Below are positions 5,733 through 26,547 of a stretch of 26,547 nucleotides of DNA, piece by piece. Source of the DNA: a virus; IMG/VR virus record IMGVR_UViG_3300024346_004212, positions 1 to 26,547 of that record. The stretch is one strand, 5' to 3'. The notes under the pieces are model-generated. The model was given only the letters and a program-made list of their open reading frames with translations, searched no databases and was not told where the DNA came from. A program made the translations under genes and the position numbers. Numbering within the stretch: the first letter of the stretch is position 1; every line of letters starts with the position of its first letter.

Positions 5733-7509
5733 GTTTCTTGAGGCACTCCAAGATGATCATTTTGAAGAGACTCCAGTAGATGCAAGAACATTTGTTGAGG
5801 GCGAAGCATACCTAGGACAGCCACCACTATCTGACATTCAATATGATATTGTTGAGGCAATGAGTCAGATTTATAGAAAAGAAGACCTAGTTAATATTAT
5901 GGGTGAGGAAAAAGGAACCCAGTATTACAACAAGTATACAAAGAATGAAATCATACTGCAACTTGGCAAGGGATCTGGAAAAGACTTTACCTCAACCGTA
6001 GCATGCTCATACATTGTATATAAACTCCTATGTTTAAAAGACCCAGCAAAGTATTTCGGTAAGCCCTCTGGAGATGCGATTGATCTAATTAACGTTGCTA
6101 TTAACGCTCAGCAGGCCAAGAACGTTTTCTTTAAAGGTTTTAAGTCAAAGATTGAAAGATCACCTTGGTTTGCAGGAAAGTATTATGCAAAGGCTGATTC
6201 AATTGAGTTTGATAAATCAATTACCGTTTACTCTGGCCACTCAGAGCGTGAATCGCATGAGGGTTTGAACTTGTTGCTTGCAGTACTTGATGAGATTTCT
6301 GGTTTTGCATCTGAAGTAGGAACAGGAAATGAACAAGGAAAGACTGCTGACAATATCTACAAGGCTTTCCGTGGATCAGTAGATTCTCGTTTCCCTGACC
6401 TTGGCAAGGTAGTACTTCTATCCTTCCCAAGATATCCAGGTGACTTTATTTCAGAAAGATATGATGATGTTGTTGCTGAAAAAGAAGTTATAGAAAGAAC
6501 ACATAAGTTTATAATTAATCCTTTACTTCCAGAGGATAACGCAGACAACACCTTTGAAATTTCGTGGGATGAAGATCAAATCACATCATATAAGTATCCA
6601 GGAGTGTTTGCACTAAAGAGACCGACATGGGAAGTAAACCCTACACGCAAGATCGATGACTTTATGATTGCATTCATGACTGACCTTGGAGATGCAATGA
6701 TGCGTTTTGCATGTGTGCCAACCTTTGCTTCTGATGCATTCTTTAAGCAGGCAGACAAGGTGAGATCATGTATGACGTTAAGAAACCCAGTAGACAACTT
6801 TAGAAGGTTTGATGAATCATTTAAGCCAGATCCAACAAAGAAGTATTATGTTCATGCTGACCTTGCACAAAAGCATGATAAGTGTGCCGTAGCAATTGCC
6901 CATGTAGATAAGTGGGTGAATATACAAGTCATTAATAATTATGAACAGGTTGCTCCAATTGTAGTTGTAGATGCAGTAGCATGGTGGGAACCAAAGGTTG
7001 AGGGCCCAGTAAATTTGTCAGAAGTTAAGCAGTGGATTCAAAACCTTAGAAGATTAGGGTTTGATATTGGCATGGTTTCCTTTGACCGCTGGCAGTCGTT
7101 TGATATTCAAAATGAATTAAAGCAAGTAGGAATGAGAACTGATACTGTTTCTGTTGCTAAAAAGCACTACGAGGACATGGCTATGCTTGTATACGAGGAA
7201 AGACTTGCTATGCCAGCAATTGATTTATTGTTTGATGAATTAACACAGTTAAAGATTATGAAAAATGATAGAGTTGATCACCCACGCAAAAAGTCAAAGG
7301 ACTTGGCTGATGCTGTGTGTGGTGCAATTTTTGGGGCAATATCACATACTCCAAAAAATATAGACACTGAAGTAGAGGTTCACACCTTTAGAGACAGGCC
7401 AAAGACTCCAGAAGAGCAATTTGACCTGGAAAGTCGCAATGTGATACAATATAAACCTAGCCAAATAGAAGAGATAAAAGACTACTTGGATAGACTAAAA
7501 ACACTATAA
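5713..7509 (+). CDS. terL: Terminase large subunit (ATPase and nuclease)
   Basis: The N-terminal ATPase has a Walker A loop G-K-G-S-G-K-D at about residues 85-91 and a Walker B strand LLLAVLDEIS. The C-terminal RNase H-like nuclease shows acidic motifs in YYVHADLAQKHDKCAVAIA, VSFDRWQSFD and DLADAVCGAIFGA. It would cut and translocate phage DNA into proheads. Start choice is uncertain: TTG at 5713 is seven bases from GAGGTGA (5699-5705), while ATG at 5722 is 16 bases away, so the TTG fits the ribosome site better. Its length of about 595-598 residues is normal for the family. Portal and capsid genes do not follow, which is atypical. Confidence 0.93.
   Translation: MSTMFNEFLEALQDDHFEETPVDARTFVEGEAYLGQPPLSDIQYDIVEAMSQIYRKEDLVNIMGEEKGTQYYNKYTKNEIILQLGKGSGKDFTSTVACSYIVYKLLCLKDPAKYFGKPSGDAIDLINVAINAQQAKNVFFKGFKSKIERSPWFAGKYYAKADSIEFDKSITVYSGHSERESHEGLNLLLAVLDEISGFASEVGTGNEQGKTADNIYKAFRGSVDSRFPDLGKVVLLSFPRYPGDFISERYDDVVAEKEVIERTHKFIINPLLPEDNADNTFEISWDEDQITSYKYPGVFALKRPTWEVNPTRKIDDFMIAFMTDLGDAMMRFACVPTFASDAFFKQADKVRSCMTLRNPVDNFRRFDESFKPDPTKKYYVHADLAQKHDKCAVAIAHVDKWVNIQVINNYEQVAPIVVVDAVAWWEPKVEGPVNLSEVKQWIQNLRRLGFDIGMVSFDRWQSFDIQNELKQVGMRTDTVSVAKKHYEDMAMLVYEERLAMPAIDLLFDELTQLKIMKNDRVDHPRKKSKDLADAVCGAIFGAISHTPKNIDTEVEVHTFRDRPKTPEEQFDLESRNVIQYKPSQIEEIKDYLDRLKTL
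7421..7450 (+). promoter_or_regulatory. Promoter inside the end of terL: TTGACC - 18 bases - TGA TACAAT
   Basis: TTGACC at 7421-7426 and an extended -10 (TG at 7442, TACAAT at 7445-7450) point to a start near 7457, about 70 bases before the ATG at 7527. It could give the exported-protein gene its own expression level. Confidence 0.5.
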
Positions 7510-7526
7510 ATAAGGAGAAATACCGA

Positions 7527-8678
7527 ATGAATTCATTCAAGAAAATCGCACTAGCCGTGGTTGCAGCCATGACTTTGGGCATGGTCGCTGTAGCACCTGC
7601 AAATGCTACAGTAATGACAGTGGCAGTATCGCTAAATGGAACAGCAAATACTACTAACGGTGTTCTTGCTACACCTGCTACACTGCCAGTCCCAGAAGAT
7701 AACGTAATTGATGCAACAGATGCACTACGCTTTGTAGCAACAGTAGCAGCAGGAACATCAGTAACTGCAGTAGCAACTAATGCAACAATCGTATCTGCAC
7801 TACATACATCAGCAGCACCAGTCGGAGCATCGTCAGGATCATCATCTTTGACAATTGCAACAGGCACTGGAACAACTGCAACATTCTTTGTCTATACAAA
7901 GACAACAGCAATTGGTACCGTTGTAATTAACAATGGTGGAACTACTCTTACATATTATGTACAGGGAACTGCTGGCAAGATCAATGCTCTTACAGTATCA
8001 GCACCTGCAACAGGCGCTGCTGGAACAAAGCAAGATATCACAGTAACTGCAACAGATACATTTGGAAACAAGGTATCGGGTAAGTCAATTACTGCAACAG
8101 TATTTGCTTCAACAGCAGTACTAGACACAGCAACAGCAACAACTGGCGCTACACTTTCAGACTTTGGAGTTGCTACATTTAAGGCAACACTTCCATCAAC
8201 TGGAACACGCTCACTAATCACATTTGCACCAACAACTTCATCAGATGCTACATCTGCAGATGTAGTTGGTCTTCCTGCTCGTGCACTTGCACCATTTGCA
8301 GAAATTGCAGTTCGTGATCTAGTATCAGAACTTGCTGCTCAGACTGCTGCAAAGACTGCTGCTGAGAATGCACTTGCAAATGCTGTAGCAAAGGCTGCAA
8401 CTGATGCTGCTGCTGCTAAGGCTGCTTCAGATGTTGCTATTGCAGCAGAAAAGGCTGCTTCAGCAAAGGCACTAGCAGATGCAAAGGTTGCTTCAGATAA
8501 GGCACTTGCTGATGCAAAGACTGCACATGATGCAGTTGTAGTTGCAAAGGATGCAGCAATTGCTAAGTTGACAGCAGATAACGCTGCAGCAATCAAGTCA
8601 CTCAAGGATGCTTTCAACAAGTTGGCTCGCCAATGGAATGCAAAGAATCCAAAGGCACGAGTTACTCTAGTTAAGTAA
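7527..8678 (+). CDS. Exported Ala/Thr-rich surface-like protein with C-terminal coiled coil (383 aa)
   Basis: SD AAGGAG precedes the ATG. A signal peptide is clear: K5-K6, a hydrophobic core, and cleavage after APANA at about residue 27. The mature part is Ala/Thr/Val rich with beta-sandwich-like blocks (an Ig-like region around 160-225, with TDTFGNKVSGKSITATV). Residues about 255-345 form a long Ala/Lys/Asp helical coil. The tail ends with LARQWNAKNPKARV. It resembles exported surface proteins of actinobacteria more than known virion parts. It may be a virion decoration, adhesin, or host-derived moron gene. A strong terminator follows directly. Confidence 0.75.
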   Translation: MNSFKKIALAVVAAMTLGMVAVAPANATVMTVAVSLNGTANTTNGVLATPATLPVPEDNVIDATDALRFVATVAAGTSVTAVATNATIVSALHTSAAPVGASSGSSSLTIATGTGTTATFFVYTKTTAIGTVVINNGGTTLTYYVQGTAGKINALTVSAPATGAAGTKQDITVTATDTFGNKVSGKSITATVFASTAVLDTATATTGATLSDFGVATFKATLPSTGTRSLITFAPTTSSDATSADVVGLPARALAPFAEIAVRDLVSELAAQTAAKTAAENALANAVAKAATDAAAAKAASDVAIAAEKAASAKALADAKVASDKALADAKTAHDAVVVAKDAAIAKLTADNAAAIKSLKDAFNKLARQWNAKNPKARVTLVK

Positions 8679-10958: not shown

Positions 10959-11165
10959 ATGAAAATAATAACAAAGGTTGTGAAGGGATTCTTCACATGG
11001 CTAAAAGATGCAGGGGTGGAAATAATCGCACAAGCCTTTACCCTCCTTGGCTTCTTCATAGCATGGTTAACTTTGACGGGATCAGCAAGAGACATTGTTG
11101 GCATTGCAGTACTTGCAACCACAGTGATCTGGCTAATTACAATCCCACTAAGAAAGGAGGACTAA
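10959..11165 (+). CDS. Small two-helix membrane protein (68 aa)
   Basis: SD GAGGAGG precedes the ATG, one base after the previous stop. The N-terminus is an amphipathic basic helix, followed by two hydrophobic segments (about residues 22-40 and 44-61) and a charged end (RKED). The layout is compatible with a small holin or accessory membrane protein. It forms an operon with the PA14 protein and the next membrane gene. No family recognised. Confidence 0.7.
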   Translation: MKIITKVVKGFFTWLKDAGVEIIAQAFTLLGFFIAWLTLTGSARDIVGIAVLATTVIWLITIPLRKED

Positions 11166-11166
11166 A

Positions 11167-11454
11167 ATGGCGACAAGAAAAAAGGTAGTAGAGGCCCCTA
11201 AGAAGGAGCACCCACAAAAGGCTTTGACAAATGTTTTGATGCGTATCGTAGCAGTGTTTGCTGCTTCTGGCCTATCAGTACTTGGTGCTGGAGCAGTAGT
11301 AGGAATTGACACAATTCAGGCAGTTATGCTTGCAGGTCTATTAGGCGTAGCAACAGTCATTGAAAGACTGGCAAGGGCTTTTTTGGACGATGGAAAACTC
11401 ACATTGGCAGAGATCAATGATGCGTTTAAGACGGTAGACAAAAAGGCTAATTAG
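11167..11454 (+). CDS. Holin-like membrane protein (95 aa)
   Basis: SD AAGGAGG precedes the ATG by seven bases. A basic N-terminus (about residues 1-20) is followed by two hydrophobic segments (about 27-45 and 50-65) and a charged C-terminal helix. Size and topology fit phage holins. It shares the hydrophobic two-helix plan with the protein at 21609. The endolysin lies 2.4 kb downstream, so a lysis role is plausible but unproven. Confidence 0.6.
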   Translation: MATRKKVVEAPKKEHPQKALTNVLMRIVAVFAASGLSVLGAGAVVGIDTIQAVMLAGLLGVATVIERLARAFLDDGKLTLAEINDAFKTVDKKAN

Positions 11455-11470
11455 TCATTATTGACCTTGG

Positions 11471-11500
11471 TTGACAGCCCTCTCTAGGCAGTGGTATACT
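11471..11500 (+). promoter_or_regulatory. Sigma70-type promoter TTGACA - 18 bases - TATACT
   Basis: A consensus -35 (11471-11476) and an extended -10 (TGG TATACT, 11492-11500) point to a start near 11507, 25 bases before the ATG at 11532. Confidence 0.75.
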
Positions 11501-11526
11501 TAAGTATCACCTATCTGGAGAGGGCT
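11476..11526 (+). repeat. Inverted repeat AGCCCTCTC / GAGAGGGCT bracketing the promoter core
   Basis: Perfect 9-bp arms at 11476-11484 and 11518-11526. The left arm abuts the -35 and the right arm contains the ribosome site of the downstream gene. Only the right arm is transcribed, so this is a DNA symmetry, perhaps an operator. Confidence 0.55.
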
Positions 11527-11531
11527 TTGCC

Positions 11532-12056
11532 ATGACCTGTATTGCCGTAGTAAAACATGAAGATAAAGTCTACATGGCTGGAGATCGTGGTGCCTCAGAT
11601 GATGGAACAATTTTAGCACTTGATGCACCAAAGGTTTGGAAGATTGGTCCATATCTTATTGGATATGCAGGTGCCATGGACGGAGAAAGAATCCGTTATA
11701 ATTTTAAACCAACTGCACCAAACATTAAAGATACAGACAAGTTTATGCAAACTAAATTTGTTAAAGAACTTCGTGAATTTTACAACGAGTTCTGGGTTGA
11801 TACATCTAAAGATGGAGATCTAGGTTTGATCATTGCTATTCGTGGAGAAATCTATGAACACAGTTCTGCAGATATGTCTTTGTCTAAGTATACACTTCCT
11901 TACCTTGCTATGGGTTCAGGAGCAGAGTATGCATATGGAGTTCTGTATGCTACAGACAAGCAAAAGAATGCTAGGAATCGTGTAGTTTCTGCTGTATCCG
12001 CAGCAATTAAGTTTAGCCCGTCGTGCATGGGTCCAGTAGATGTTGTAACTGCTTAA
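11532..12056 (+). CDS. Proteasome beta/HslV-type Ntn-hydrolase (174 aa)
   Basis: The protein begins MTCIAVV and continues VYMAGDRGAS, PKVWKIGPYLIGYAGAMDG and, later, AMGSGAEYAYGVLYAT, the signature of the T1 peptidase fold. After Met removal, Thr1, Asp17 and Lys33 fall exactly at the canonical proteasome numbering. It should be an N-terminal-Thr protease, acting in the cytoplasm as a ring. No ATPase partner gene is visible, so it may use a host one or act alone. It has its own strong promoter and is followed closely by an oxygenase gene. HslV/proteasome-like single genes are known in some phages but remain poorly studied. Confidence 0.82.
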   Translation: MTCIAVVKHEDKVYMAGDRGASDDGTILALDAPKVWKIGPYLIGYAGAMDGERIRYNFKPTAPNIKDTDKFMQTKFVKELREFYNEFWVDTSKDGDLGLIIAIRGEIYEHSSADMSLSKYTLPYLAMGSGAEYAYGVLYATDKQKNARNRVVSAVSAAIKFSPSCMGPVDVVTA

Positions 12057-12075: not shown

Positions 12076-12576
12076 ATTAAAATTTTTGATAATTATTTAG
12101 ATCAAAATGATTTTAAAACTATTCAGAATGCAATACTAAATGAGGGCTTTCCATGGTTTTATAGCCCAATCGTAGTGTCTGAAGATGAAAATCCTGAGTT
12201 AGATAAGTTTCAGTTTTATAATACACTATGTGTTAAAAATGAAGTTAAATCAAGTTTTTATAATTTGCTAGATCCATTAATTAAAAAAATAAGTCCTTCA
12301 TATATATATAGAGTAAAGGTAAATCTTGGAACAAGAACTTCCACACCTATAGTAGGAGGATTTCATTCAGACACTGACTTTAACAATACAACAGCAATAT
12401 TCTATCTAAATAATAATAATGGGTACACAATTTTTGAAGACGGATCAAAAATTGATAGCGTAGAAAACAGGCTTGTTGTCTTTGATTCAAACATACAGCA
12501 TTCGGGTGTCTCGCAAACAGACTCCAACATTAGATGTGTTATTAATTTAAATTACATTGATAAGTTGACAGACTAA
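12076..12576 (+). CDS. 2-oxoglutarate/Fe(II) oxygenase-like protein, probable ATT start (166 aa)
   Basis: AGGAG (12065-12069) is six bases from ATT 12076, which opens a natural N-terminus reading (I/M)KIFDNYLDQNDFKTIQ. The only later start is a GTG at 12175, which would delete 33 conserved-looking residues. The double-stranded beta-helix residues are H97 and D99 (GFHSDTD), H142 (NIQHSG) and R153 (DSNIRCVINL), the HxD...H...R layout of phage oxygenases that bind iron and 2-oxoglutarate. Substrate unknown. It follows the proteasome-like gene by 19 bases, so they are likely co-transcribed. Confidence 0.72.
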   Translation: MKIFDNYLDQNDFKTIQNAILNEGFPWFYSPIVVSEDENPELDKFQFYNTLCVKNEVKSSFYNLLDPLIKKISPSYIYRVKVNLGTRTSTPIVGGFHSDTDFNNTTAIFYLNNNNGYTIFEDGSKIDSVENRLVVFDSNIQHSGVSQTDSNIRCVINLNYIDKLTD

Positions 12577-12593
12577 AGGCTATCGGATATACT
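12565..12593 (+). promoter_or_regulatory. Consensus promoter TTGACA - 17 bases - TATACT, leaderless output
   Basis: -35 at 12565-12570 overlaps the end of the oxygenase gene and -10 is at 12588-12593. The expected start at about 12600 coincides with the A of the next ATG, and no SD is possible. Confidence 0.8.
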
Positions 12594-12599
12594 TATAAT

Positions 12600-12818
12600 A
12601 TGAACGAAGAATTTGAAGAGATCCTAAAGGACATTCAGAATATAGAGTCAGACTTTGACGAGTTTGAAATCTGGCTTGACAATGGAATTCAGCGTGGATG
12701 GATAACAGAACCATTCTGCAACACTCATGAAGGAGATCCTTACATGACAGAAGAAGAGCAACAAGAGTGGGAAGATGGTGGAGACCCATGCCAATTAGTT
12801 TTAAAAATCAAACAATAA
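12600..12818 (+). CDS. Acidic hypothetical protein, probably leaderless (72 aa)
   Basis: The ATG is at the predicted transcription start. The protein is strongly acidic with an N-terminal helix (residues 1-28) and a motif-like stretch PFCNTHEGDPYMTEEE (about 38-53) and a later EDGGDPC. One Cys-x-x-His and a distant Cys might bind metal. I know no function. It overlaps nothing essential and is followed by a subtilisin-like gene with its own ribosome site. Confidence 0.75.
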   Translation: MNEEFEEILKDIQNIESDFDEFEIWLDNGIQRGWITEPFCNTHEGDPYMTEEEQQEWEDGGDPCQLVLKIKQ

Positions 12819-12835
12819 AAAACAAGGAGAACATA

Positions 12836-13732
12836 ATGAAGAAAACACTACTAGCAATACTATCAATTGCAATTGCATTTACAGCAATGCAGCCATCTCA
12901 GGCACAAGATCAAAAGGTATTGGCAATTATTGATACCGCAATTAATGCAAAGAATTTTCCATCAATTATTCATGAAGTTTGCTTTACAACTGTAAAGTCA
13001 TCAATTCCTACTCAGAACATGTCTTGCCCTAATGGTGAGTTGTTTATGGAAGGACCTGGTGCTGCTGCTGCGCCATGGCCAGCATCAATCAATAACGGAA
13101 CATACCATGGTGATTCTATGGTAAAGGCTGCACTTGTAACTAACCCAGATGTTAAGATTGTATTTGTTCGCTTTGCAGATGTTACAAGTCTTGGAAACCA
13201 TAGAGGAGACCCAAATGCACTTATTGCAGCAATAGACTGGGTATCAAAGAATGCTTCAAAGTATAGTATTGATGCACTTTCAATTAGCCAGTCTGGAGTC
13301 TCTACTGACCTTAAGACAAGAGATAGAGTCCTTCACCCAGCATGCTCTGATGCACGAACAGCAACTGCCGTAGCACAACTAAAGAACATTAATGTTCCAA
13401 CATTTGCTGCTACAGGCAATGATGGACTAAGCAACCTTGTTGGATTCCCAGCATGCATCACTGATGTTATTGGTGTTGGAGCAATGGGTTCTCCTACACA
13501 ACTTGAAAAGGCAACAAACAGAGGCCCTGGTCTTGACATGGTTGCACTTGGCAAAGTAACAGTTACCAAGTACAATGGTTCTGTAACAGATATTTCAGGA
13601 TCTTCTGCAGCCACTGTTGTTTCAGCATCTTCTTATATTAATAAGAACACAGGTAGAACTTTTACAGACTACATTAATTCTTTAGTAAAGATTAACATAT
13701 CTGGAGTGTCTTACCCTTACTCATCTAAGTAA
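12836..13732 (+). CDS. Secreted subtilisin-like serine protease (298 aa)
   Basis: SD AAGGAG lies before ATG 12836. A signal peptide (residues 1-23: KK, hydrophobic core, cleavage after QPSQA) precedes a compact S8 domain. The triad is complete: D33 in AIIDTAIN, H91 in GTYHGDSM and S257 in ISGSSAATV, with oxyanion N195 in FAATGNDG. At under 300 residues with no propeptide visible, it is small for the family. It should act outside the cytoplasm, perhaps trimming envelope or virion proteins, or competitor factors. Secreted proteases are unusual phage cargo. Confidence 0.85.
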   Translation: MKKTLLAILSIAIAFTAMQPSQAQDQKVLAIIDTAINAKNFPSIIHEVCFTTVKSSIPTQNMSCPNGELFMEGPGAAAAPWPASINNGTYHGDSMVKAALVTNPDVKIVFVRFADVTSLGNHRGDPNALIAAIDWVSKNASKYSIDALSISQSGVSTDLKTRDRVLHPACSDARTATAVAQLKNINVPTFAATGNDGLSNLVGFPACITDVIGVGAMGSPTQLEKATNRGPGLDMVALGKVTVTKYNGSVTDISGSSAATVVSASSYINKNTGRTFTDYINSLVKINISGVSYPYSSK

Positions 13733-13881: not shown

Positions 13882-14520
13882 ATGGCAGCAAAAGGTAGTC
13901 TAGAAGCAATCATTGAGATTGCAAAGAAAGAAGTGGGCACAATTGAAGGCCCTAAAGATAACGAAACAAAGTACGGTGCATGGATTAAGGTAAACTTCCA
14001 GCCATGGTGCCAGTCATTCGTTTCGTGGTGTGCATTTACAGCGGGAGTTAAGTCATTCCCTAAGTCTGCATCAACAGTAGCAGCAGCAGATTGGTTTAAG
14101 AAGGCTGAGCGTTGGTCAGATGCTCGCAACGATGATCCACAAGCAGGAGACTGGATCTATTTTGATTTCCCAGAAGATGGTGTAAATCGTATTTCACATG
14201 TTGGTCTTTGCATTAAGAACAATGGTGATGGAACTATCCAAGTTATTGAAGGAAACACTTCAGGAACTGCCAAGGGAGATCAGCGCAATGGCGGAATGTG
14301 TGTAGAAAAGACTCGTGGTTATGTAAAGAATAACAAGAAGAAGTTAGTTAACGCTGTAGTTGGTTGGGGTCGTCCAGTTTATACTGGTGAAGAAAATGCT
14401 CCACTACTAAACAAGGTGGTAGCATCTGCAACAACATCAACACCAGCACCAAAGAAGGCTGCAAAGCCTGCTGCAAAGAAATCATCTGGTGGCGGAGGAA
14501 AGGCTCAGGTAGCACTATAA
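13882..14520 (+). CDS. CHAP-domain endolysin (212 aa)
   Basis: The N-terminal domain carries the CHAP amidase/endopeptidase residues: C43 (QPWCQSFVSW), H106 (ISHVGLC) and E123/N125 (VIEGNTS). It would cut peptidoglycan at lysis. There is no signal peptide, so it needs a holin or other exit route. Residues about 145-160 are Lys rich. The end (about 180-212) is an Ala/Lys/Pro tail finishing with KKSSGGGGKAQVAL, which matches the tail of the holin-like protein at 21609 (KKSSGGGKATNQVK). It has a strong SD and its own extended -10 promoter. TAA overlaps the next ATG. Confidence 0.9.
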   Translation: MAAKGSLEAIIEIAKKEVGTIEGPKDNETKYGAWIKVNFQPWCQSFVSWCAFTAGVKSFPKSASTVAAADWFKKAERWSDARNDDPQAGDWIYFDFPEDGVNRISHVGLCIKNNGDGTIQVIEGNTSGTAKGDQRNGGMCVEKTRGYVKNNKKKLVNAVVGWGRPVYTGEENAPLLNKVVASATTSTPAPKKAAKPAAKKSSGGGGKAQVAL

Positions 14521-15662: not shown

Positions 15663-15914
15663 ATGTTTACAATGATTAAAGATGAAGTCAAGCAAGAATG
15701 GCAACTATCCCCTCTGGATCGATGTGACAGGTGTAGTGCAGAAGCCCTAGTTAAGGTTACTGGCATTAGCGGAGACCTTATGTTCTGTGGACACCACTAC
15801 AATAAGATTATGGACAATCCAGAAGGATACAAAAAGATGATGTCTTTTGCTTTGACAGTCCTTGATGAAAGAGAAAAACTTATTGAGAATAGGGCAAAAG
15901 GCGATTCCTACTAA
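15663..15914 (+). CDS. DUF7455-like zinc-binding protein (83 aa)
   Basis: ATG 15663 was chosen over an upstream TTG at 15624 that overlaps the FmdB gene. The core LSPLDRCDRCSAEALVKV followed by DLMFCGHH matches a short actinobacterial family, with C21, C24, C42 and H45 as likely zinc ligands. A helical tail follows. Function is unknown. Its presence supports an actinobacterial host. TAATG overlap with the next gene. Confidence 0.72.
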   Translation: MFTMIKDEVKQEWQLSPLDRCDRCSAEALVKVTGISGDLMFCGHHYNKIMDNPEGYKKMMSFALTVLDEREKLIENRAKGDSY

Positions 15915-16675
15915 TGATTATTCAGATTATAGGTCTTCCAGGTTCTGGTAAAACAGAATTAGCGAAGGCATTAAAAGAGCGTATAAATGCTATTCATCTT
16001 AATGCTGATGAAGTTCGTGCAACAGTCAATTCAGATTTAGGGTTTGCACCAGAAGATAGAATTGAGCAGGCTCGTCGCATGGGGGAAATGGCTCGCCTTA
16101 TTGCAAAGCAGGGCGTTGCTCCAGTTGTTGTTGACTTTATATGTCCTACGGACTTAACTCGTGCAGCATTTGGCAAACCAGATATCCTTGTATTTATGGA
16201 TACGCTTGCCGAAGGTCGTTTTGAAGATACAAACAAGATGTTTGAAAGACCAACAAATTTCGATGTAGCATTCATCAGTCATAATTTAAACGCTGATGCA
16301 AAGGCATCGCATATTATTCAAAAGTTTAAACTTCATGATTGGTCTGCACCAACAACATTGATGCTTGGAAGATACCAGCCTTGGCATGAAGGACATCACG
16401 CCCTTTATAAAGAAGCAGGCAAGAGAACAGAGCAAGTCCTACTAGGAGTCCGTAACACATACAATACAAGTGAAAAGGATCCTCTTAAGTTTGATCAGGT
16501 AAAAGAGTACATTGCCGAGGATGAATTTATGGACGGAGCATTAGTATTAAGATTACCTAACATTACCAACATTGTATATGGTCGTGATGTAGGCTATAAG
16601 ATTGAGCAAGTAGACTTAGGGGCAGATATTCATGCTATTTCTGCTACGCAAAAGCGTAAGGAAATGGGCATATGA
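15914..16675 (+). CDS. APS-kinase-like domain fused to an HxGH nucleotidyltransferase (253 aa)
   Basis: Residues 1-140: P-loop GLPGSGKT (7-14), then NADEVRATVNSDLGF and DRIEQARRMGEMARLIAKQG, closely following APS kinase, though its usual DGD is NAD here. Residues 145-253: GRYQPWHEGHH (152-162; HxGH 158-161) and near the end ISATQKRKE, which match NMN adenylyltransferase-like enzymes. The order (kinase first, transferase second) is the reverse of NadR. It could act on an adenylylated or phosphorylated small molecule, or in NAD salvage; substrate unknown. Overlaps the genes on both sides. Confidence 0.8.
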   Translation: MIIQIIGLPGSGKTELAKALKERINAIHLNADEVRATVNSDLGFAPEDRIEQARRMGEMARLIAKQGVAPVVVDFICPTDLTRAAFGKPDILVFMDTLAEGRFEDTNKMFERPTNFDVAFISHNLNADAKASHIIQKFKLHDWSAPTTLMLGRYQPWHEGHHALYKEAGKRTEQVLLGVRNTYNTSEKDPLKFDQVKEYIAEDEFMDGALVLRLPNITNIVYGRDVGYKIEQVDLGADIHAISATQKRKEMGI

Positions 16676-21940: not shown

Positions 21941-21972
21941 AGCAGGCTTGTTACTTGACAGGCCTGCTTTTC
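21941..21972 (+). terminator. Rho-independent terminator
   Basis: AGCAGGCTTG pairs with CAGGCCTGCT (one G-T wobble), loop TTACTTGA, followed by TTTTC. It ends the long accessory operon. Its right arm overlaps a promoter -35 element. Confidence 0.8.
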
Positions 21973-21983
21973 TATGTTATAAT
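21955..21983 (+). promoter_or_regulatory. Consensus promoter TTGACA - 17 bases - TATAAT with TG extension
   Basis: TTGACA is 21955-21960, TATAAT 21978-21983, and TGT precedes it. The -35 lies in the terminator hairpin. Start near 21990, giving a leader of about 51 bases to the hsp20 ATG. Confidence 0.85.
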
Positions 21984-22040: not shown

Positions 22041-22445
22041 ATGGTAAAAACAGCACTGGATCTTTTTAATGATCCATTTTTTAATACCTTCTCAAACCTA
22101 CAGAAGGTAACAACAACAACAAACTATCCACCTTATAATCAAATCAAACTAAATGATAAAGAGTATATTCTTTCATTTGCTTTGGCTGGGTTCTCTAAGG
22201 ATGATGTCTCAGTATCGCTAGACAATCGCAAACTTACAATCAAGGGCGAGAAGCAGGATGCTGAGTTACCAGAGGGTGCAGAGTATCTACACAAGGGAAT
22301 TGCTGCTCGCAAATTCACTGATATCTTTACTCTTCCTGAGTTTGTGGAAGTTGTTGGGGCTGAATTCAAGGACGGTATCTTAGATATCAGACTTGAAAAG
22401 CAGATCCCAGAAGATAAACTACCAAAAACTATTGAAATCCAGTAG
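22041..22445 (+). CDS. hsp20: Hsp20 family small heat shock protein (134 aa)
   Basis: SD AAAGGGG is six bases from the ATG. The alpha-crystallin domain is complete: KEYILSFALAGFSKDDVSVS, LTIKGEK, then IAARKFTDIFTLPEFV and FKDGILDIRLEK. N-terminal arm is short (DLFNDPFFNTF). It should act as an ATP-independent holdase, probably aiding virion or host protein folding during infection. Small heat shock proteins occur in some large phages. Its promoter is the strongest in the window, and its stop abuts the noncoding region. Confidence 0.93.
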   Translation: MVKTALDLFNDPFFNTFSNLQKVTTTTNYPPYNQIKLNDKEYILSFALAGFSKDDVSVSLDNRKLTIKGEKQDAELPEGAEYLHKGIAARKFTDIFTLPEFVEVVGAEFKDGILDIRLEKQIPEDKLPKTIEIQ

Positions 22446-24238: not shown

Positions 24239-26302
24239 TTACTTGTTCTCCTTAATAAATAGATCTGCATTCATTACCTTTGTCCATGCTGAAACAAAAT
24301 CATGAACAAACTTTTCATTAGCATCACTAGATGCATATACTTCTGCAATTGCTCTAAGTTCTGAATTAGAAGGGATGATAAGATCTACACGAGGAAGGTT
24401 AATTGCTTCTTCCGCATTAGTAAATGAAAGTAGTCGAGATAAGTAGGTATTATCTAACTTATTATACTTTAACATTCTCATACCAGAAAGTAGTAGTACC
24501 ATTTCTACAGGTGTTAGTCCAAGAAGGTTAGCCTTTTCTACTAGCAATACTTCTTCTGGAGCAGTAATGCTTGGATGAACATAGTTTCGAAATGCATCAA
24601 ACTTTGGTTCAAGAACTGAAAAAGATTCAATATCTGTCTGCTCTTGAGTTGCATCACCACGACTAAACTTTGCACCAATTACGATACCAATACCGCTATT
24701 AACTGCAGCAACTTGAACACCAACTAGTCCAGCAAAAACAATTAAGTCTGCTAGAGATACATCAAACTCATTCTTGATTTCATTAAGAACTGATACTACT
24801 CTGTTGATAGCCTCATGATCATTTACTTCCCATGTGTTCTGAGGAGCAAGCACAAGGCGAGCACCGTTGGCACCACCACGCTTGTCTGTCTTGCGGAATG
24901 TTGATGCAGATGCCCAGGCAGTTGTAACTAAGTCAGAAACAGATAGACCAGATGACATAATTCTTTCTTTAATTAGATCAACATCTTCCTGTGTTAAACT
25001 ATCTCTGGTTACATTGCCAACTGGATCTTGCCAAATAAGTTGCTCTGATGGAACTTCCTTGCCAAGATATCTTGCGATTGGGCCCATATCTCTATGGGTT
25101 AACTTAAACCACGCACGAGCAAATTGATCTGAGAAGTAGTCAAAGTCTTCAAGGAATCGTCTTGAAATCTTTTCATACTCTGGATCAAACCTCAATGCAA
25201 GGTCTGCTGTTGTCATAACTGGAGCATGGAACTTGCCCTCAACATGTGCATCTGGAACTAAATTAGCAGCAGACTCATCTGTTGGAATCCATTGTGTTGC
25301 ACCAGCAGGTGACTTTGTTTGTGTCCAATCATACTTAAATAATAACTTAAGGTATGAGTTGTCCCACTTAGTAGGAGTTGCAGTCCAAGCACCTTCAATA
25401 CCACTTGTGATAGTATCTTCTGCATTACCCTTGCCAAATGAGTTCTTCCATCCAAGACCAAGGTCTTCTAGTGGAGCAGCCTCTGGATTAGGGCCAACAT
25501 GTGAAGGATCTCCAGCACCATGTGCCTTACCAAATGCGTGTCCACCAGCAATTAGTGCAACTGTCTCTTCATCGTTCATTGCCATGCGAGCAAAGGTTTC
25601 ACGAATGTCTCGTGCAGAAAGAACTGGATCAGGATTTCCATTAGGACCTTCAGGGTTTACATAAATCAAACCCATCTGTACTGCAGCAAGAGGATTTTCT
25701 AATTCACGATCTCCGCTATAGCGATTGTCTGCAAGCCATTCCTTTTCTGTACCCCAGTATGTATCATCTGATTCCCAAACATCTGCACGACCACCAGCAA
25801 AACCAAATGTCCTAAAGCCCATGTTTTCAAGTGCAACGTTGCCTGCAAGAATCATTAGGTCTGCCCATGAAATCTTCTTGCCGTACTTTTGCTTAATTGG
25901 CCATAAAAGTCTGCGAGCCTTATCAAGATTGCCGTTATCTGGCCATGAGTTTTGTGGAGCAAATCTGTGTAGACCTTCACCTGCACCACCACGACCATCA
26001 GTTACTCTGTATGTGCCAGCACTGTGCCATGCCATACGAATAAAGAATGGACCATAGTTACCATAGTCTGCAGGCCACCAATCTTGCGAGGTAGTTAGAA
26101 GAGTATTGATGTCATACTTAATAGCATCAAGATCTAAACTGTTAAACTCGTTAGCATAGTCAAACTCGTTTCCCATAGGATCGGACTTTTCTGAATGCTT
26201 TCTCAATGGAGACAAGTCTAGTTGGTTAGGCCACCAGTCTTTGTTTGTTCTAGCCTCTGTTGTATATGTCTTACCAGTGTATGGACACTTTGCTTCACTC
26301 AT
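24239..26302 (-). CDS. katG: Catalase-peroxidase KatG (687 aa)
   Basis: All key residues align to M. tuberculosis KatG with an offset of 15: R89, W92 and H93 (distal), Y214 and M240 (Met-Tyr-Trp cross-link with W92), H255 (proximal haem ligand) and S300 (S315). It would destroy H2O2 in the cytoplasm. At 687 residues it is short for the family; the C-terminal domain appears to lack about 30-35 residues between LLSGMRML and [13 protein letters not shown]. The catalytic domain seems intact. It lies opposite to the phage operons, after a structured leader, with a small membrane gene coupled behind it. An ATG at 26362 would add 20 unneeded residues overlapping the leader stem. Confidence 0.95.
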
Positions 26303-26342
26303 GAGTTTCTCTTTCTGTTTGTTATGTATTACAAAAGTTAGG

Positions 26343-26405
26343 AGGGTGTGGTGTTGCAACATAGGCTATAAATGTTTCCCGACACATATAGGCTAACCAC
26401 ACCCT
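26343..26405 (-). promoter_or_regulatory. Structured katG mRNA leader: 10-bp stem starting at the predicted transcription start
   Basis: On the transcript, AGGGTGTGGT (26405-26396) pairs with ACCACACCCT (26352-26343). Inside are a smaller ATGT/ACAT hairpin and two direct copies of TAGCCTAT. A 10-bp palindrome TGTTGCAACA lies at 26352-26361. It could stabilise the mRNA, respond to a signal, or act as a protein site. Confidence 0.55.
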
Positions 26406-26412
26406 TACTACT

Positions 26413-26421
26413 ATTATAGCA
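26413..26421 (-). promoter_or_regulatory. Extended -10 promoter TGCTATAAT for katG
   Basis: Read on the minus strand, TGC TATAAT lies at the 3' end of tRNA-Arg; start near 26406, about 104 bases before the katG ATG. Confidence 0.65.
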
Positions 26422-26492
26422 CCCCTGGCAGGAATCGAACCTGCGACGCTTGGCTTAGAAGTCCAACGTTCTGTCCACTGAACTACAGAGGT
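26420..26492 (-). tRNA. tRNA-Arg (anticodon TCT)
   Basis: Minus strand: acceptor ACCTCTG with CAGGGGT (one wobble), D arm with AGTTCAGTGGACAGA, anticodon loop CTTCTAA closed by TTGG/CCAA, T arm GCAGG-TTCGATT-CCTGC. No encoded CCA. The A-G mismatch at the base of the anticodon loop is slightly unusual. Confidence 0.87.
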
Positions 26493-26496
26493 ATTG

Positions 26497-26547
26497 CATC
26501 TCCAACGGAATTCGAATCCGTGTTGCTGCCGTGAAAGGGCAGAGTCC
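26497..26547 (-). tRNA. tRNA-Glu (anticodon TTC), 5' part outside the window
   Basis: Minus strand: anticodon stem CTGCC/GGCAG with loop CTTTCAC, then T arm ACGGA-TTCGAAT-TCCGT and 3' acceptor TGGAGAT. The D arm and 5' acceptor lie beyond the window end. Confidence 0.82.

Follow-up and report, generated by a model that had tools for sequence, protein, structure and literature searches.

A proteasome-family Ntn hydrolase is almost certainly encoded as a phage gene at positions 11532–12056 (+ strand) of a virus record of 26.5 kb (GC 38.6%), which was analysed over its whole length and is called the window here. We consider it rather probable that the gene is best explained as encoding a stand-alone threonine protease, transcribed from its own promoter and insulated by a hairpin. 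Phage proteasome homologues have already been published, with the AAH subfamily described by Fuchs, Alva & Lupas 2021 (PMC8665760), and homologues are carried by T5-like phages, the isolated Planktophila phage LanE43-AprE7, Arthrobacter phage Hum25 and the lake phage DSL-LC01 (PMC10611076). Therefore, the kind is already known and the abundant freshwater-actinophage branch is a new addition to it; what looks new is this freshwater lineage together with the RNA hairpin that spans its start site.

The window also encodes WhiB, DnaE, RecA, a terminase large subunit and a CHAP endolysin. Given that its terminase and DnaE have their nearest relatives (55–58%) in the Yaboi-type Streptomyces phages of 120–134 kb (Stanwilliamsviridae), and that related viral contigs reach 116 kb among the best 80 of at least 592 relatives, the window is regarded as a fragment of a large actinophage. 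The at least 592 relatives came from a first scan of viral contigs, of which the best 80 were kept, the window being the 81st sequence. WhiB and the Yaboi-type relatives point to an actinobacterial host, and the low GC content together with KatG and other genes common to freshwater-type phages suggests the freshwater order Nanopelagicales. No direct link to a host was found.

The Ntn gene starts with ATG and encodes 174 residues without an internal stop. Its assignment to the proteasome beta-type hydrolases in the original prediction agrees with three lines of evidence, namely Pfam family PF00227 (25.3 bits, the gathering cut-off being 22.4), PHROG 1040 'peptidase HslV family' (E=7e-22, residues 1–173) and the predicted fold. 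The AlphaFold2 model, built from an input of 25 window/locus sequences (pLDDT 92.4, pTM 0.89), has the alpha-beta-beta-alpha sandwich, and Foldseek placed BPH 5ovs first (TM 0.80, E=2e-12), followed by HslV and 20S beta subunits, while phage 'HslV' models were matched in a viral library. A profile search of the PDB returned HslV 1m4y (E=9e-16) and BPH 5ovu (E=1e-14). The predicted catalytic residues are present at their proteasome positions when counted from residue 2, so that Thr1, Asp17 and Lys33 correspond to residues 2, 18 and 34, and Gly43/Gly46 and a GSG motif are found as well. The protein missed all the curated equivalog cut-offs, namely those for HslV (TIGR03692; 21.4 of 157.75 bits), bacterial 20S beta (TIGR03690; 16.6 of 191.9 bits) and archaeal 20S beta (TIGR03634; 27.5 of 224 bits). 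These scores separate it both from genuine HslV and from the beta subunits of the 20S proteasome.

The original prediction had proposed a phylogeny with HslV and 20S beta subunits. A tree that took in 19 actinobacterial chromosomal homologues, and to which long-branch warnings apply, sets the window group apart from HslV, BPH and PrcB, within a 36-row clade of T5/Vibrio-type phage and actinobacterial proteins (support 100/99), where it forms its own deep branch with L094/L095. The chromosomal homologues had been recovered by searching 247 genomes of the class with a profile; a pattern scan of genome contigs with the window protein gave no close cellular relatives. We infer that this chromosomal set is the AAH subfamily. 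Within the proteasome family, the window protein is placed in 'group I', together with HslV and BPH, and nearest to AAH-like phage and actinobacterial homologues. AAH proteins are abundant in Actinobacteria, and the 2021 study came upon no Actinobacteria-specific phage with AAH (PMC8665760). Membership in PPH, the proteasome homologue of phages and their hosts with about 140 residues and no helix H2 (PMC8665760), was rejected, as the window protein has 174 residues and both helices of the first pair in its model (H51–57, H68–86).

With the AAH-type homologues, the T5-like PHROG 1040 proteins included, the window protein has in common the clade, the triad, the fold type, the occurrence in phages and the lack of a co-occurring AAA+ gene. 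The window group differs from them in that the window protein is only 24–35% identical to the isolated-phage members, in its occurrence in large freshwater actinophages, and in having its own promoter and a hairpin at the ribosome-binding site (RBS). HslV (ClpQ) resembles the window protein in fold, triad, a possible lack of an alpha subunit and the position of Thr1 right after the initiator Met, but differs by its partner HslU, none of which was found in the phage records searched. The best solved-structure match is BPH (5ovs, 5ovt, 5ovu; TM 0.74–0.80), which is chromosomal, longer and only 17–24% identical to the window protein; it is a Thr1 enzyme that apparently works without an unfoldase (PMC8665760). 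The phage LanE43-AprE7 (OX376640.1; isolation paper PMC10202952) encodes a 31%-identical homologue at record positions 7500–8033. This homologue also has Thr1/Asp17/Lys33 and also belongs to a phage of a freshwater actinobacterium; it differs by its tree subclade and by its carrier, a 39-kb phage of a different type. The OX376640.1 record itself is unannotated, its Ntn gene notwithstanding.

Thr1, Asp17 and Lys33 are intact in all 81 near relatives (the window and the best 80 of at least 592), and the distant phage homologues, from T5-like Salmonella, Vibrio, Psychrobacter and Aeromonas phages, Arthrobacter phage Hum25 and DSL-LC01, have kept the triad in every case aligned. Relatives without Thr1, named beforehand as the observation that would speak against an Ntn hydrolase, were thus found neither among the near sequences nor among the aligned distant homologues. 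In the same 81 sequences 126 of 173 columns are invariant, and the median dN/dS of the best 80 of at least 592 relatives against the window is 0.034 at a dS of about 1; the 80 were picked by similarity to the window protein, which inflates the conservation and lowers dN/dS. The Ntn gene is under strong purifying selection, a result obtained computationally, as are family, triad and fold. When homologues of other phages served as single queries, few or no viral loci were obtained, except for the Planktophila-phage protein, which has 144 confirmed relatives in viral contigs (80 loci).

The dedicated promoter of the original prediction was confirmed as a sigma-70-type promoter at 11471–11500 (+), with TTGACA at 11471–11476, an 18-nt spacer and TATACT at 11495–11500 (11 of 12 consensus positions). 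The strict promoter pattern occurs three times in the window against 0.09 expected, and the Ntn promoter is kept in 79 of the 81 sequences (the window and the best 80 of at least 592). The perfect 9-bp inverted repeat said to flank the promoter (11476–11484 and 11518–11526) is likewise present and can be extended to 12 bp at 92%, its description as flanking being the part that did not hold. The left arm, AGCCCTCTCTAG (11476–11487, +), shares its first base with the end of the −35 box and precedes the expected transcription start, and the right arm, CTGGAGAGGGCT (11515–11526, +), contains the Shine-Dalgarno sequence GGAGAGGG (11517–11524), 7 nt before the ATG. A hairpin over the RBS, or a terminator, fits this arrangement better than a plain promoter-flanking repeat. 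Repeats of 9 bp within 60 nt are unremarkable alone, as the window has 47 pairs with a length of 9 nt or more, and it is the conservation and covariation in relatives that mark this one as real. In an 18-sequence alignment, 93% of the stem cells pair compared to 35–75% with the partner slid, both partners have changed in 7 of the 13 stem pairs, and G-U pairs make up 51 of the 67 non-Watson-Crick cells.

For read-through RNA that has both arms, a fold of −31 kcal/mol (z −3.4) is predicted in which the Shine-Dalgarno sequence is paired, while RNA from the expected start site folds no better than shuffles (z +0.5). The hairpin probably insulates the expression of the Ntn gene, and if it does so, an RBS gate is somewhat favoured over a terminator. 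On transcripts reading through from the upstream lysis-type genes, the hairpin would bury the Shine-Dalgarno sequence in the manner of T4 gene e, or terminate them. Transcripts initiated at the embedded promoter, in contrast, would have no left arm and be translatable. In T4 genes e, soc, 49 and I-TevI, the early read-through RNA goes untranslated, and translation proceeds on RNA that starts at the late promoter inside the hairpin (PMC3014915, PMC2988022). The putative gate, which draws on predicted folds, covariation and this precedent, is similar in that the promoter lies within the hairpin region and the Shine-Dalgarno sequence is predicted to be buried only in transcripts starting upstream. 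It is different in that T4 uses a late promoter and the embedded promoter of the window is of the host sigma-70 type, the gate being predicted from sequence. A hairpin with an embedded promoter would extend this T4 regulatory principle to actinophages.

The Shine-Dalgarno sequence is predicted to be buried in read-through RNA in 15 of 29 divergent leaders with the promoter. Since about half of the divergent upstream regions have no RBS-covering stem, the gate would not be essential to the gene. It is a possible, less favoured explanation that the inverted repeat acts as a repressor-bound DNA operator or as a terminator of the upstream genes. The operator is consistent with a dyad symmetry centred on the −10 box that persists in the clade without an RBS-covering arm, but one-sided changes often keep a G-U pair, which is tolerated by RNA and unrewarded in a DNA dyad. 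A terminator role is possible because CUUU(U) adjoins the stem, and it would also fit the finding that the hairpin occurs in all 40 loci with the holin-like gene directly upstream compared to 3 of 38 without it, a link in which clade and gene content are confounded; two of these three exceptional loci have no recognisable promoter. Against termination stand the tract of only 3–4 U and the absence of the repeat from the terminator-like hits of the window, and the coincidence of the Shine-Dalgarno sequence with the right arm argues against both the operator and the terminator.

For the stand-alone protease, we infer catalytic activity that would begin with the removal of Met1 by the host methionine aminopeptidase, leaving Thr1 exposed. 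Exactly one Ntn gene was found with the group's own profile in each of 12 related records (44–117 kb), and because a single such gene is present, identical subunits would be expected to self-assemble into a ring or barrel. Having no unfoldase of its own, the enzyme would most likely act on unfolded or damaged host or phage proteins during infection, and the phage Hsp20, often encoded nearby, may hold unfolded clients. The small heat-shock protein Hsp20 is encoded at 22041–22445 (+), 10.5 kb from the Ntn gene in the window; the proximity is taken from relatives, since of the 61 with enough sequence, 34 have Hsp20 on the downstream side of the Ntn gene at a distance of no more than 3.5 kb. This neighbourhood suggests a role in protein quality or protein turnover, and we tentatively name proteostasis or host-protein turnover as the role. 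It would be an unlikely, more far-reaching version that freshwater actinophages supply their proteasome-less streamlined hosts with a one-gene, unfoldase-free degradation together with phage Hsp20, restricted to its own promoter because read-through RNA hides the RBS.

As predicted, no partner ATPase was found nearby. An AAA+ unfoldase was detected neither among the scanned genes of the window nor in 12 longer related records (44–117 kb), in which AAA_2 gave no match and AAA gave nothing above the cut-off, with weak matches below it. A P-loop gene in the window was rejected as an unfoldase, its product being a kinase/nucleotidyltransferase-like protein. The main rival for the mechanism is that the Ntn protein borrows a host unfoldase, docking on ClpX or ClpC, redirecting it and supplying the peptidase half of an ATP-dependent machine with two components. 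AAA_2 proteins of ClpC length (about 840 aa) and ClpX length (about 440 aa) are present in all 61 host-order genomes searched, and the structural neighbour HslV works with HslU. We nevertheless consider such a machine unlikely, given that no phage AAA+ partner was found in the records searched and that HslU and the proteasomal ATPases dock through specific tails. Moreover, Fuchs et al. found no AAA+ genes co-occurring with any of the new homologues and suggested unfoldase-free action (PMC8665760). The proposal that the phage copies host proteasome functions was not supported, as the presumed host order mostly has neither a proteasome nor HslV, with PF00227 proteins absent from 147 of the 151 genomes searched. 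If the host belongs to that order, the stand-alone protease would be an enzyme class brought by the phage and mostly missing from the host.

The gene order in the relatives is terminase (47/47), tail-like proteins, a small membrane protein, a holin-like protein and the Ntn hydrolase, followed by a 72-aa acidic protein, a secreted protease-like protein and the CHAP endolysin. In the window, the upstream membrane proteins are the small one recognised from its sequence (10959–11165, +; 76 of 77 relatives) and the holin-like one directly before the Ntn gene (11167–11454, +; 44 of 78 relatives long enough). The gene for the 72-aa acidic protein (12600–12818, +) is near the Ntn gene in 77 of 77 relatives and directly after it in most. 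It has its own promoter (12565–12593), the −10 box of which lies 6 nt before the ATG, so that a leaderless mRNA is possible, and its product carries the conserved motifs CNTHDG and GGDPC, belongs to no Pfam family and has no hit at E<=1e-3 among the annotated phages. This small acidic protein was rejected as a Pup-like tag, because its C-terminus is variable instead of GGE/GGQ and Pfam gave no match. The secreted protease-like protein (12767–13732, +; PHROG 3677 'protease'; 57 of 73 relatives) shows subtilisin-like Asp/His/Ser motifs by eye, is encoded near the endolysin in most relatives and evolves fast (median identity 34%). The CHAP-domain endolysin (13882–14520, +) is present in 57 of 65 relatives.

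This conserved block between terminase/tail-like and lysis genes would also suit a protease that processes one particular protein of the phage or virion (head, tail or lysis) instead of a degradative one, an enzyme of the kind that phages commonly need. We regard this as improbable. Among the long relatives, 7 of 9 carry a separate protease for head maturation, with about 42% identity to the one of Yaboi, which speaks against the earlier idea of virion-protein degradation insofar as head maturation is meant. In addition, related phage genes lie in unrelated neighbourhoods, and no Ntn homologue was found in the Yaboi-type Streptomyces phages, which have the same terminase and DnaE types, indicating that the gene is dispensable for a virion of this type. 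In the accessory region of Streptomyces phage Yaboi, genes annotated as 'ClpP-like protease' and 'SprT-like protease' were observed (record 87108–87272).

The fold and the triad could also fit non-degradative functions, as the proteasome-family relative connectase is a protein ligase (PMC8665760). An enzyme that modifies a protein of the host or the phage, be it a connectase-like ligase or an amidohydrolase, would be in line with the unusual invariance (126/173 columns) expected for a specific partner. We hold this to be a shade less probable still than a processing protease, since the helical insertion that connectase has between strands 3 and 4 is not seen in the model (E20–23, E26–29, E35–38) and the nearest folds of the model are degradative barrels. 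That the gene is a degenerate or non-functional passenger is highly improbable in view of a dN/dS of about 0.03, a triad in 81/81 and a promoter in 79/81 sequences (best 80 of at least 592 and the window), even if no phenotype is known for any phage member and many related phages do not have the gene.

Proteasome homologues are known from phages, but no job has been assigned to any of them. In abundant lake phages the Ntn gene hardly varies over hundreds of contigs, most of the presumed hosts are free of proteasomes that would confuse the picture, and the cultured Planktophila pair E7/LanE-43 encodes a distant homologue. Due to this invariance, the mostly proteasome-free presumed hosts and the cultured pair, the use of a proteasome subunit by a phage becomes directly testable. 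The finding stands above routine annotation because the gene is so abundant and invariant in lake actinophages, because a proteasome is mostly missing from the presumed hosts, because the RBS hairpin covaries and because there is a cultured system.

Several further features of the window were observed. A 2OG-oxygenase-like open reading frame (12076–12576, +) lies between the Ntn gene and that of the 72-aa protein and was not found in the best 80 of at least 592 relatives; as its frame has no ATG there, it likely starts with ATT, 6 nt upstream of which is the Shine-Dalgarno sequence AGGAG. The gene at 15914–16675 (+) fuses an APS_kinase-like kinase to a cytidylyltransferase-like domain with the motif GRYQPWHEGH, possibly a NadR-like bifunctional enzyme of NAD metabolism. 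Upstream of Hsp20, a 12-pair terminator-like hairpin (21941–21983, +) overlaps the −35 box of a promoter with perfect consensus (TTGACA-17-TATAAT), a further case of a terminator-like stem and a promoter packed into one short stretch. At the right end (26419–26547, −), a tRNA-Arg(tct) is followed by a tRNA-Glu-like gene, recognised by eye and cut by the contig end. An integration site at the tRNA-Arg was rejected, the longest host tRNA matches being at most 82% identical, and the adjoining second tRNA points to a phage tRNA array. A full-length, phage-borne catalase-peroxidase KatG is encoded at 24239–26362 (−). It has relatives in 149 viral contigs, with 98% to 70% identity for the 80 viral copies kept, compared to at most about 65% for cellular relatives, so that the right end was rejected as a piece of host genome. 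A viral katG has been reported as an auxiliary gene in an estuary (PMC13390420). A katG group in Planktophila is reported to lie near tRNAs and to be a likely horizontal acquisition (PMC7527133); the katG of the window also lies near tRNAs, and phages could be a vehicle.
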